Below are positions 7,109-49,753 of a DNA stretch of 64,000 nt, one piece after another. Below the pieces are notes generated by a model that had not been told where the DNA came from, did not search any database, and saw only the letters and a list, made by a program, of their open reading frames with translations. The stretch lies in NCBI RefSeq assembly GCF_015773195.1, contig NZ_JADWYK010000001.1, positions 62,001-126,000 on the forward strand, read 5' to 3'. Within the stretch, counting starts at the first letter, position 1, and the number at the start of each line of letters is the position of its first letter. The position numbers and the translations under genes were made by a program. Source of the DNA: Hymenobacter guriensis (GTDB taxonomy: Bacteria > Bacteroidota > Bacteroidia > Cytophagales > Hymenobacteraceae).

Positions 7109-7200
7109 GTCATGCTGAGCTTGTCGAAGCATCTCTACCTCAGACTAATCACTGTTATTGCAACGAAGCGTTAGAGATGCTTCGACAAGCTTAGCATGAC
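7109..7200. repeat. GTCATGC palindromic element, copy 1
   Basis: The arms 7109-7137 and 7172-7200 are inverted copies of 29 bases with one mismatch (GTCATGCTGAGCTTGTCGAA on the left). A loop of about 34 bases lies between. It can fold into one long hairpin. A diverged second copy lies at 43965-44047, so this is a dispersed family. Confidence 0.85.
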
Positions 7201-43953: not shown

Positions 43954-44075
43954 GTTGGCTGGTTGTCATGCTGAGCGCAGCCGAAGCATCTCTACCGCTT
44001 CGTTAGGATACTACACTATCCAGACGCTTCGACAAGCCCAGCATGACCATTTACGACCAACCGCTAACAGCCAAC
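43954..44075. repeat. Nested spacer repeat H with GTCATGC element copy 2
   Basis: Outer arms GTTGGCTGGTTG (43954-43965) and CAACCGCTAACAGCCAAC (44058-44075) are imperfect inverted copies. Between them, 43965-44047 is a diverged GTCATGC element: GTCATGCTGAGCGCAGCCGA at the left end and GCTTCGACAAGCCCAGCATGAC-type sequence at the right (RC begins GTCATGCTGGGC). It looks like a dispersed element inside an older hairpin. Confidence 0.7.
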
Positions 44076-46798: not shown

Positions 46799-47824
46799 AT
46801 GCTCACGTTGCTGGACGGCCTGCGCTACTCTACCCTCACCAGCTATTCCTGGGAGTGGCCGCGCGTGCTGCTGCTGCTGCCGGCCCTGCTGCTGCTGCCG
46901 GCCCTGCGGTGGCTGCTGGCACACCGGTGGCGCACCCGGCTGGGGGTAGCCTTCGTGGCGGGCCGGCTGCGCACGGACTGGTCGGCGCTGCTGCGGTTTC
47001 TGCCCGATCTGGTGCTGCTGCTCTGCCTGGCCTTTGCGGTGCTAGCCCTGGCCCGCCCCCAGCGCACCGACGAGCGGGTGGTGCAAACCGGCGAAGGCAT
47101 CGATATTCTGCTGGTGCTGGACGTGTCGGGCTCCATGGAGCTGCAGGACCTGCAGCCCAACCGCCTGGAAGCCGCCAAGCGGGTAGCCCGCGAGTTTGTG
47201 GCCGGCCGTGCCGGCGACCGGATCGGGCTGGTGGCGTTTGCCGGCGACGCCTACTCCCTGGCCCCGCTTACCACTGACTATGACCTGCTGCGCGAAAACC
47301 TGGGCGAGCTACGCCTGGGCATGATTGCCAACGACGGCACCGCCATTGGCACGGCCCTGGGCGTGGCCACCAACCGCCTGCGCGACTCCCGTAGCCGCAC
47401 CAAAGTCTGCATTCTGCTTTCCGACGGCGAAAACACGGCCGGCAACCTCGACCCGCTGCTGGCGGCCCAACTGGCGCACGCCTACGGGCTGCGGCTTTAT
47501 ACCATTGGCGTGGGCCAGGATGGTACCGTGCCCTTCGGCAAGGACGAGTTTGGCCGCCCGCGCTACGTGGAAACCCGCCTCGACGAAACGGCCATGCGCC
47601 AGCTGGCTACGGCCGGCGGCGGCCAGTTCTTCCGTGCCACCGACACCGAAGCCCTGCGCGAAGTCTTCGACCAGATCAACCGCCTGGAAAAGTCGGAAAT
47701 CAAGCAGACCCGCTACCGCAACACCACCGACCACTACCGCTACTACCTGGCCTGGAGCATAGCCTTCTGGCTACTATGGCTGGCCCTTAAAAACACCTTT
47801 CTCACCAACTCACTGGAAGACTAA
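46799..47824 (+). CDS. batA: BatA-like von Willebrand factor A protein
   Basis: 341 aa: an N-terminal helix pair (LLLLPALLLLPALRWLLA and FLPDLVLLLCLAFAVLALA), a VWA domain with the metal site DVSGSM (D108) and LLSDGENTAG, and a last helix (YLAWSIAFWLLWLALKN). This is the BatA layout; Bat proteins were linked to aerotolerance in Bacteroides. No batB, batC or batD follows, so the locus is short or split. Confidence 0.88.
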   Translation: MLTLLDGLRYSTLTSYSWEWPRVLLLLPALLLLPALRWLLAHRWRTRLGVAFVAGRLRTDWSALLRFLPDLVLLLCLAFAVLALARPQRTDERVVQTGEGIDILLVLDVSGSMELQDLQPNRLEAAKRVAREFVAGRAGDRIGLVAFAGDAYSLAPLTTDYDLLRENLGELRLGMIANDGTAIGTALGVATNRLRDSRSRTKVCILLSDGENTAGNLDPLLAAQLAHAYGLRLYTIGVGQDGTVPFGKDEFGRPRYVETRLDETAMRQLATAGGGQFFRATDTEALREVFDQINRLEKSEIKQTRYRNTTDHYRYYLAWSIAFWLLWLALKNTFLTNSLED

Positions 47825-47970
47825 CGCTTCGCTTAATGTGCTAATTTGGAAAATGTGCTGATGTGCTGAGTACGTCCCTCAACACATAAGAGAAACCCAG
47901 CCCTTTCTCTTAACATTAGCGAAGTAAGGTGCATTAGCACATTTTTCACATTCTCCACCTTAGCGAAGCG
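47825..47970. repeat. Spacer inverted repeat D before yggS
   Basis: Nested blocks: CGCTTCGCT (47825-47833) with AGCGAAGCG (47962-47970); GAAAATGTGCTGATG (47849-47863) with GCATTAGCACATTTTTC (47931-47947); and an inner perfect stem TAAGAGAAA (47887-47895) with TTTCTCTTA (47904-47912). Units are variants of AATGTGCT. The left arm begins at the first base after the batA stop; further CAGCACATTA units run up to the yggS start. Confidence 0.85.
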
Positions 47971-47985
47971 CAGCACATTAAAAAC

Positions 47986-48654
47986 ATGTCCATAGCCGAG
48001 AACATTCGTTTTTTTGAGGAGCAGCTGGCTGGCACCGGCGCTAGGTTGGTGGTCGTCACGAAAACGCACCCCGTGGAGCGGCTGCGAGAGGCCTACGAGG
48101 CCGGTGCCCGCATCTTCGGCGAAAACCGCGTGCAGGAAATGACGGCCAAGCAGCCCGAGCTGCCCAATGACGTGGAGTGGCACCTTATTGGGCACCTGCA
48201 AACCAACAAGGTGAAGTACATAGCGCCCTTTGTACACACCGTGCAGAGCCTCGACAGCCTGAAGCTGCTGGAGGAGTTGGAAAAGCAGGCGGCCAAACAC
48301 AACCGGGTTATCGACGCCCTGCTACAGTTTCATATTGGCGAGGAAGCCACCAAAACCGGCCTCACCCTGCCCGAAGCGGAGAACCTGCTAACGTCTGATA
48401 CTTTCCGTCAGCTGCGCCACGTGCGCATTGTGGGCGTGATGGGCGTGGCTACGTTTACGGATGACGAAGCCCAGCTCCGCCGCGAGTTCCAGACGCTGCG
48501 CGGCTACTTCGAGCAGCTGCAGGTGCGGTATTTCATGGATCAGCCAGCTTTCCGGGAGCTTTCCATGGGTATGAGCTCCGACTACTCCTTGGCTTTGCAG
48601 GAAGGCAGCACGCTTATCCGGGTAGGCAGCGCTATTTTTGGCGCCCGGGGTTGA
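47986..48654 (+). CDS. yggS: YggS/PLPBP family pyridoxal-phosphate homeostasis protein
   Basis: 222 aa, a single alanine-racemase-like TIM barrel without the second domain. The PLP lysine is K26 in VVTKTHPVERL; GENRVQEM, WHLIGHLQTNKVKY and MGMSSDYSLALQEGSTLIRVG are all diagnostic. Binds PLP without known catalysis and keeps free PLP and amino acid pools balanced. Confidence 0.94.
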   Translation: MSIAENIRFFEEQLAGTGARLVVVTKTHPVERLREAYEAGARIFGENRVQEMTAKQPELPNDVEWHLIGHLQTNKVKYIAPFVHTVQSLDSLKLLEELEKQAAKHNRVIDALLQFHIGEEATKTGLTLPEAENLLTSDTFRQLRHVRIVGVMGVATFTDDEAQLRREFQTLRGYFEQLQVRYFMDQPAFRELSMGMSSDYSLALQEGSTLIRVGSAIFGARG

Positions 48655-48656
48655 CT

Positions 48657-48682
48657 GGTTTGATGGTTGTCTTGTTGAATGG
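48657..48682 (+). repeat. Spacer repeat G, left arm
   Basis: A 26-base segment (GGTTTGATGGTTGTCTTGTT and 6 more) right after yggS. It is an inverted copy of 49344-49369, matching at 19 of 26 positions without gaps. The two arms enclose the lipoprotein gene 48720-49337. Confidence 0.65.
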
Positions 48683-48719
48683 CTGTGTTGTCATCAACTA
48701 GGTAGTTCCTTTTGAGAAT

Positions 48720-49337
48720 ATGCGGTACATTTTTACTTTTTTGCCGCTTCTACTGCTGCTGGCGTGCCAGGGTTCTTCTGAGAAAGCGGCTCATGCTTCC
48801 GCCAAAGTGGCCGAGTCTTCCCGCATAGCACCTGCTTATTCAGCTGATTCGATGCGTGCGGCCCGGCTGGCAGCCCAACGCTACGTAATCGATACTATGG
48901 CAATCCTGACCAAAAAGCGGTTGCCGGCCTTACTGGAAAAACTGCAGCGTACCAAGCTCAGAACGTACACTTCTGCCCAGGCACTGCCGCCGGTAGTAGC
49001 CGCCTTCCTAGCGTTGAAGACCGGGGCTAATGGCCCCCCTGAAATAGCCGACCGCGGAGCACCCTTTGAGGCAACAGATGTTGTTTATGATAACTCCTTA
49101 CCAATTCGGCAGTTGATCTATCTGGGGCAGGGTGATGATATGGTGTTGCTGGCCTACTATCAGGGAGGCTTTGGTCTGTCTGTGCACGTTGCCATTTTTC
49201 AGTTGAGGCATAACAAGATTCAGGATATGTGGTCTGGCTGTTTAACCGGTGACCCTACTGCCAAGGAAGACCTTATACAACAATTGCACGAGCTACCCCT
49301 CGAAAGAACCATAACCGGCTGCGGTCTATGCTTTTAG
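48720..49337 (+). CDS. Lipoprotein of unknown function, enclosed by inverted repeats
   Basis: 205 aa. The signal peptide and lipobox (FLPLLLLLACQG; C16) mark a lipoprotein. The mature part is mixed helix and sheet with no family recognised; it ends in ERTITGCGLCF. GC is visibly lower than in yggS or the DUF423 gene. It sits exactly between the two arms of an inverted repeat, as if inserted into the loop of a spacer hairpin. Confidence 0.75.
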   Translation: MRYIFTFLPLLLLLACQGSSEKAAHASAKVAESSRIAPAYSADSMRAARLAAQRYVIDTMAILTKKRLPALLEKLQRTKLRTYTSAQALPPVVAAFLALKTGANGPPEIADRGAPFEATDVVYDNSLPIRQLIYLGQGDDMVLLAYYQGGFGLSVHVAIFQLRHNKIQDMWSGCLTGDPTAKEDLIQQLHELPLERTITGCGLCF

Positions 49338-49343
49338 CAAAAG

Positions 49344-49369
49344 CCAGTCAACCACTTAACAATCCAACC
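49344..49369 (+). repeat. Spacer repeat G, right arm
   Basis: CCAGTCAACCACTTAACAAT and 6 more bases, ending directly before the ATG at 49370. Inverted copy of 48657-48682 (19 of 26 matches). Confidence 0.65.
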
Positions 49370-49753
49370 ATGCACCTAACTGCCCGCGTTATTCTTCAAC
49401 TGGCCGCCGTGCTGGGCTTGCTCAGCGTTGGCATCGGCGCGTTTGCTGCCCACGGCCTGCACGACATGCTCCAGCGCACCAACCGCCTCGACACGTTTGA
49501 AACCGCCGTGCGCTACCAATTCTACCACACTTTGGCCCTGGTGGCGGTGGGCGTGCTGCTGGCCGCCCGACCCGAGCTGCAGGGCCTGGGCCGCACCGCC
49601 GGGCTGTGGCTGGGCGGCATTGTGCTGTTCAGCGGCTCCTTGTATTTGCTCTGCTTTACGGGCTACACCAAGCTGGGTGCCGTCACCCCCATCGGCGGGC
49701 TGCTGTTTATTGCGGGCTGGATCAGCCTGCTGCTGGTCGCCCGGCAGCTGTAG
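49370..49753 (+). CDS. DUF423 family membrane protein
   Basis: 127 aa, four hydrophobic helices. GIGAFAAHGLHDML near residue 21, AVRYQFYHTLALVAVG and the GYTKLGAVTPIGGLLFIAGW end are typical of DUF423 (YgdD-like). Function unknown. ATG 49370 was chosen over an overlapping ATG at 49328 because the family starts here. Its stop is 4 bases from the convergent hutI stop. Confidence 0.9.
   Translation: MHLTARVILQLAAVLGLLSVGIGAFAAHGLHDMLQRTNRLDTFETAVRYQFYHTLALVAVGVLLAARPELQGLGRTAGLWLGGIVLFSGSLYLLCFTGYTKLGAVTPIGGLLFIAGWISLLLVARQL

Follow-up and report, generated by a model that had tools for sequence, protein, structure and literature searches.

A low-GC lipoprotein gene probably gained inside the loop of a spacer hairpin in Hymenobacter guriensis and a sister genome

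REP, REPIN and BIME elements, which include the GTAG and CGTC superfamilies, are short palindromes dispersed between genes, and two of them facing each other may fold into a larger hairpin. According to the part of PMC3733652 available for this comparison, REP-type palindromes prefer the spacers between tandem and convergent genes, and the CGTC REPs apparently have no dedicated transposase. Short units are also known as direct repeats, such as the heptamer TAACTGA, which the available part of PMC4679880 describes in Beggiatoaceae, Cyanobacteria, and five Bacteroidetes. A gene-carrying segment inside a repetitive palindrome is known from ISPpu9, which is found in REP sequences (PMC8450116, in its available part). 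Spacer hairpins of Hymenobacter are not described among the open-licence PMC matches listed, a scope outside which preprints fall, and none of the Bacteroidetes terms tried is present in PMC2267715.

The locus considered here lies in a window of 64,000 nucleotides (the whole stretch of DNA that was analysed) from the genome of Hymenobacter guriensis (G000), one of the 120 genomes of the genus that were compared. Three genes follow one another on the plus strand: yggS (47986-48654), encoding a PLP-binding protein (TIGR00044, 168 bits) and matched in 120 of the 120 genomes; a lipoprotein gene of an unnamed family (48720-49337, 205 aa), with the reading frame that the earlier note had described; and a DUF423 gene (49370-49753; PF04241, 96.8 bits), matched in 119 of the 120. 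The left spacer holds a GT-rich, octamer-built hairpin arm on the plus strand (about 48649-48686), which begins just ahead of the yggS stop codon. Facing it, the right spacer holds an AC-rich arm on the minus strand (about 49338-49371), which is abutted by the DUF423 start codon. Both extents are fuller than the arms at 48657-48682 and 49344-49369 given in the earlier note. A leader (48687-48719, plus strand), putatively the former loop of the hairpin, separates the left arm from the start codon of the lipoprotein gene; the left arm and this leader are identical in the sister genome G092. The spacer 5' of yggS (47825-47985) contains another octamer-like facing repeat (AATGTGCT / AGCACATT), which represents a second hairpin motif.

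Seen from the H. guriensis genome alone, the pairing of the two arms is modest, and it is the wider repeat family together with the sister genome that lift the match above chance. The count of 19 matches in 26 ungapped positions, with one arm inverted, was obtained again, and an ungapped 26-mer scoring at least as high occurs in 5 of 2000 dinucleotide shuffles of the two spacers; the gapped local score of the match is equalled in 62 of 5000. When the last 6 nt of yggS are added, the facing score has a z of 5.05 and is reached by none of 200 shuffles. Ranked by its facing flanks, the lipoprotein gene stands 5th among the 135 genes with spacers on both sides in 224 kb of G000. The register of the pairing is not unique, with coordinate sums of 98002, 98018, and 98034 besides the 98026 that corresponds to the earlier alignment. 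These registers lie multiples of 8 apart because both arms are composed of degenerate octamers (GGTTGACT GGTTTGAT GGTTGTCT TGTTGAAT GGCT). An arm profile was built from 15 family arms, a seed that includes the left arm of this locus (33.3 bits) and excludes its right arm, which nevertheless scores 12.1 bits (E 0.039 in 224 kb). Over those 224 kb of G000 the profile finds both arms at the lipoprotein gene, one other hairpin, and one intragenic match at chance level (E 4).

The arms are members of a dispersed, lineage-specific family of REP-like spacer hairpins present in G000, G092, and, more distantly, G074. A search of the 120 genomes with the left junction returned many short, arm-only matches in these three genomes, several of them paired on opposite strands at distances of 15 to 50 nt. 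A 21-nt core of the arm, which matches the left arm of the locus with 0 mismatches in both G000 and G092, is found with up to 3 mismatches 6 times on the plus and 4 times on the minus strand of G000, 12 and 7 times in G092, and 6 and 4 times in G074. At least one such match occurs in 19 of the 120 genomes, while a reversed control pattern gives 0 in G000, G092, and G074 and 2 over all 120. All other core matches in the three genomes were fetched together with 9 loci from other genomes, giving 40 loci, 39 of which contain an arm recognized by the profile. Since 8 of these 39 spacers are orthologous repeats of others, the independent sample is about 31; gene boundaries come from a simple caller, with two of them set by hand.

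The members of this family occupy their spacers in a regular manner. Of the 36 spacers with a GT-rich arm, 30 have it no more than 15 nt from the left gene, and of the 30 with an AC-rich arm, 23 have it at most 15 nt from the right gene. By profile, 27 of the 39 spacers carry both arms and 12 a single one (9 left, 3 right). The flanking genes are oriented -- in 16 cases, ++ in 14, +- in 9, and -+ in none; for comparison, 28 of 135 spacers of at least 60 nt in the 224 kb of G000 are divergent, so that the chance of finding 0 in 30 is 9e-4. In none of the 39 other family loci do the arms enclose a called gene, within about 2.5 kb on each side. Loops can hold other material: GTCAT occurs within 45 nt after the left arm in 5 of 37 loci, against 2.9% of background spacer windows, and in L158, L161, and L175 only, the loop contains a REP-like element starting with GTCAT that is clear by eye, a precedent for other content inside the loop. 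Over 30 elements, own arms outpair swapped arms on average (20.3 vs 16.2). L191 and L197 are orthologous hairpins of two species with, by eye, an apparent compensated change in the stem (GACTTG/CAAGTC vs GAATTG/TAATTC).

The sister genome G092 is 91.4% identical to G000 over 57.6 kb of DNA and has the lipoprotein gene at the same junction, with a protein 86% identical. Its left spacer is identical to that of G000, and its right spacer is quite different. The right arm of G092 (713880-713900) was found both by the genome-wide core pattern and by the profile (24.0 bits). The empty site was modelled by joining left and right spacers, and in 151 control joins the left spacer was combined with the ends of other G000 spacers. 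Joined in this way, the flanks of G092 fold into a single hairpin (-44.6 kcal/mol, z -6.4) that has 29 left-right pairs, an energy reached by 0 of the 151 control joins and a pair count reached by 2. By its facing flanks the lipoprotein gene comes 1st (z 10.3) among the 65 G092 genes with spacers on both sides. The joined flanks of G000 give -27.9 kcal/mol and 21 left-right pairs, a fold that is not distinctive, with its energy equalled by 17 of the 151 control joins and its pair count by 35. The pairing of the right arm has decayed in G000. The left arm of the locus is no better a partner for it than the left arms of other copies (rank 17 of 30 in G000, 9 of 30 in G092), and arm co-evolution at the locus in G000 was dropped as a candidate on the strength of that rank of 17. 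A stretch of 124 nt identical between G000 and G092 (48646-48769) was likewise set aside as a special feature, being only the 14th longest identical run in the 57.6-kb alignment. Beside the enclosed gene in G092, DUF423 (G092:C1:713917-714298) is split over two frames, matching model positions 1-67 and 61-127, either by a frameshift or by a sequencing error.

The low GC content that the earlier note had remarked upon holds, the lipoprotein gene having 0.526 vs 0.593 for yggS and 0.654 for DUF423. Its GC3 of 0.549 compares with a mean of 0.769 (SD 0.059) and is the second lowest of 171 called genes; the dN/dS between G000 and G092 is 0.32, which indicates purifying selection. On these two grounds the gene looks acquired and maintained. 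By coordinates, a lipoprotein gene next to yggS is present only in G000 and G092 and in none of the other 118 genomes of the genus. Of 24 yggS-DUF423 junctions that were read, 22 are empty, with spacers of 41-193 nt, and 11 more are empty by coordinates (31-140 nt). The nearest empty relative is G037 (Hymenobacter sp. BT18), in which the pieces flanking the locus are 76.5 and 80.9% identical. Homologues of the protein are found in 10 of the 120 genus genomes, those other than the G000 and G092 copies being 33-42% identical and standing at other loci; across the taxonomic family 11 of 204 genomes have one, a single one of them outside the genus. In the flanks of the 8 other homologues in the genus the arm profile scores at most 5.1 bits (E 1.1), and the facing repeats there do not clearly exceed those of shuffles; the best of them, at L009, is equalled in 14 of 200. 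Five of these 8 (L005, L006, L007, L010, and L011) precede what by eye appears to be the same convergent gene, a neighbourhood that is perhaps the older home of the lipoprotein family. Assemblies labelled Acidobacteria, Terriglobia, and Alphaproteobacteria also contain distant relatives.

Judged by its sequence, the protein qualifies as a bacterial lipoprotein, with a hydrophobic signal peptide followed by a lipobox cysteine (Cys16) that is invariant in 10 aligned homologues, and its lipidation is predicted. It has no Pfam or NCBIfam match at E 0.1, and its structural model (pLDDT 77.4) has no Foldseek match at E 0.001. The best VIA-align result for that model reaches a Z of 6.0 with an rmsd of 3.4 over 69 residues, and its matches to NTF2-like proteins are only weak or middling. 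No Rfam match was found at E 1 across 47800-49450.

The reading that we consider probable is that the ancestor shared by G000 and G092 gained the low-GC lipoprotein gene within the loop of a spacer hairpin. In the lineage of G000, G092, and G074, hairpins of degenerate octamers fill some of the spacers that separate tandem or convergent genes. Their GT-rich arm mostly begins 15 nt or less from one gene and their AC-rich arm mostly ends 15 nt or less from the next, with a loop of variable length. A lipoprotein gene from elsewhere would have entered the loop of the hairpin between yggS and DUF423 and then been kept; afterwards the right arm would have drifted in G000, leaving that of G092 still able to pair well. 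Each flanking spacer would have just one inward-facing arm, abutting the outer gene, because a single hairpin was split by the gene. Judged from its position only, the hairpin probably acts as is proposed for other REP-like elements, folding within the 3' part of the upstream transcript and affecting termination or mRNA decay. The earlier note's proposal, that the loop of a spacer palindrome took in a gene, is strengthened by the family arms, by the fold of G092, and by the lack of the gene at this junction in the other 118 genomes; that the hairpin preceded the gene is, however, an order that we infer. The comparison that the note had recommended, with a relative having both arms and no gene, led to G037, which is indeed empty but whose junction ends are only weakly arm-like (facing score 11, fold z -0.2). 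Loss of the gene in G037 may have taken place instead, an event compatible with the two sister genomes alone. Read as a gain, the locus shows a spacer hairpin taking up a gene, and both a sister genome with the gene and many relatives with an empty junction are at hand.

An alternative that is unlikely, but serious enough to be weighed closely, reverses the order: the gene would have entered a plain spacer, after which each of the two new spacers independently gained one arm, or gained a hairpin that lost one. The 12 single-armed spacers among the 39 of the family make this conceivable and weaken the case that one arm per side means one split hairpin. The arms of G000 fit each other only at the level of the family, and among the 24 junctions read no relative has arms of this family without the gene. 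Other species carry different hairpins at the junction, so the content of this spacer does turn over. It speaks against this order, however, that the left spacer has only a GT-rich arm and the right one only an AC-rich arm, each abutting the outer gene as whole hairpins do, and that the joined flanks of G092 are lower in energy than every one of the 151 control joins. A far less probable account treats the lipoprotein gene as the cargo of a small element whose terminal inverted repeats are the arms, as the earlier note had also suggested. Inverted ends enclosing a single low-GC gene would suit such a cassette, and short GIY-YIG genes do lie between inverted repeats in the same genomes. Against it, the arrangement is known from a single locus common to two sister genomes, the other family loci enclose no called gene (0 of 39), and the 8 other homologues of the genus are armless; the protein has no known domain, and the search for a target-site duplication yielded, in the 15 nt next to the outer ends of the arms, no shared direct word longer than 4 nt.

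That the arms match by chance, through the composition of a GT-rich trailer and an AC-rich leader, is scarcely credible. Spacers that begin GT-rich and end AC-rich do recur in the genus, and both the gapped match of G000 and its joined fold are within reach of their controls (62 of 5000 shuffles and 17 of 151 joins). Composition accounts poorly, however, for a right arm that is matched by a profile made from other copies, or for G092, where strong pairing is achieved through a different right arm, at the first rank of 65 genes and with an energy that no control join matches. Hairpin first and gene second remains the order that we prefer for these two genomes.

Facing repeats of another type enclose genes in the same genomes. 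Among 27 PF01541 matches in six genomes, 14 short ones were tested, and in 12 of these the GIY-YIG nuclease gene lies between inverted REP-like repeats starting with GTCAT; 11 of the 14 have their arms within 350 nt, and in the twelfth case the arms are further out. The first two cases, G000:C11:245223-245519 and 212627-212917 (L243 and L248, outside the window), have near-perfect arms; the remaining loci are L242, L245-L247, L249-L251, L254, L255, and L260. The repeats fall into several subfamilies (GTCATGCTGAGC, GTCATTGCGAGC, GTCATCCTGAGC, and GTCATTCCGAAC). A facing-flank score of 25 or more is reached by just 1 of 176 genes of G000, which is a GIY-YIG gene. In a sample across the order, 6 of 26 short GIY-YIG genes with loci have inverted arms: two within the genus, three repeat-like ones outside it, and one that resembles a terminator. 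Short GIY-YIG nucleases could be the mobiliser of the repeats starting with GTCAT. These repeats resemble the CGTC REPs in the available part of PMC3733652. In the window, facing GTCAT-type REP-like pairs are found at 7109-7200 and 43965-44047, where GTCATGCTGAGC is paired with GCTTAGCATGAC and with GCCCAGCATGAC. For the octamer-built family, RAYT was rejected as a mobiliser: PF01797 (Y1_Tnp) has no match in G000 at E 0.001, 3 in G092, and 2 in G074, and the 4 of these 5 that could be placed have no arm-profile match within about 1.5 kb.

Lineage-specific spacer hairpins of other sequence are suggested across the genus. In the 21 empty yggS-DUF423 spacers compared, each 70 nt or longer, a spacer's own ends outpair ends swapped between species (mean 11.6 vs 7.2), and the fold z is below -2 in 14 of the 21, with motifs that differ by species; at least 3 of these spacers (L026, L030, and L048) hold GTCAT-type REPs, not short-unit arms. 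For a heptamer motif derived from G016, G117 gives 45 plus and 44 minus matches and G053 gives 20 and 15, with no control matches in either; in G094, G097, and G075 the control amounts to a third of the signal or more. G117, G053, G016, and G015 have many short-unit spacer repeats of the GTTGTTAGTTGTC type, with 89 core matches in G117. As a tentative and rather doubtful generalization, these hairpins might form a fast-evolving class whose arms line the ends of spacers and whose motif is set per lineage (octamers here, GTTGTTAGTTGTC-type heptamers in G016, G015, G053, and G117). A junction would keep its hairpin while the sequence is replaced, loops would serve as landing places for genes and other elements, and the generator in G000 would be something other than RAYT. 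The result is a candidate class of lineage-specific, tag-less spacer hairpins in Hymenobacter, undescribed among the literature matches listed. If the place is indeed kept while the motif is rewritten, the class would offer a natural system for studying how bacterial spacers are made and homogenised.

Compared with the known systems, the octamer-built family shares with the REP, REPIN, and BIME elements of PMC3733652, as its available part presents them, the form of short dispersed intergenic palindromes whose facing pairs may fold into a larger hairpin. The preference for spacers between tandem or convergent genes is likewise that of the REPs in this source, with 0 of 39 family spacers being divergent against 28 of 135 in the background. 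The family differs from REP, REPIN, and BIME elements in that its arms are octamer-built, its copy number is low (10 core matches in G000 and 19 in G092), its arms stand near both ends of the spacer, and its loop is variable; no GTAG or CGTC tag was found in the family arms, and elements starting with GTCAT occur only nested in some of the loops. With the TAACTGA repeats, as far as the available part of PMC4679880 describes them, the arms have in common a short intergenic unit, a position near start codons in some species, and a patchy distribution across species. Those repeats are direct copies of one fixed heptamer, whereas the Hymenobacter arms consist of degenerate octamers that face each other in one hairpin. 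The cargo of the H. guriensis locus is a lipoprotein gene with no transposase, unlike that of ISPpu9 as presented in the available part of PMC8450116; like ISPpu9 in its REP sequences, however, the locus would represent a gene-carrying segment lodged inside a repetitive palindrome.
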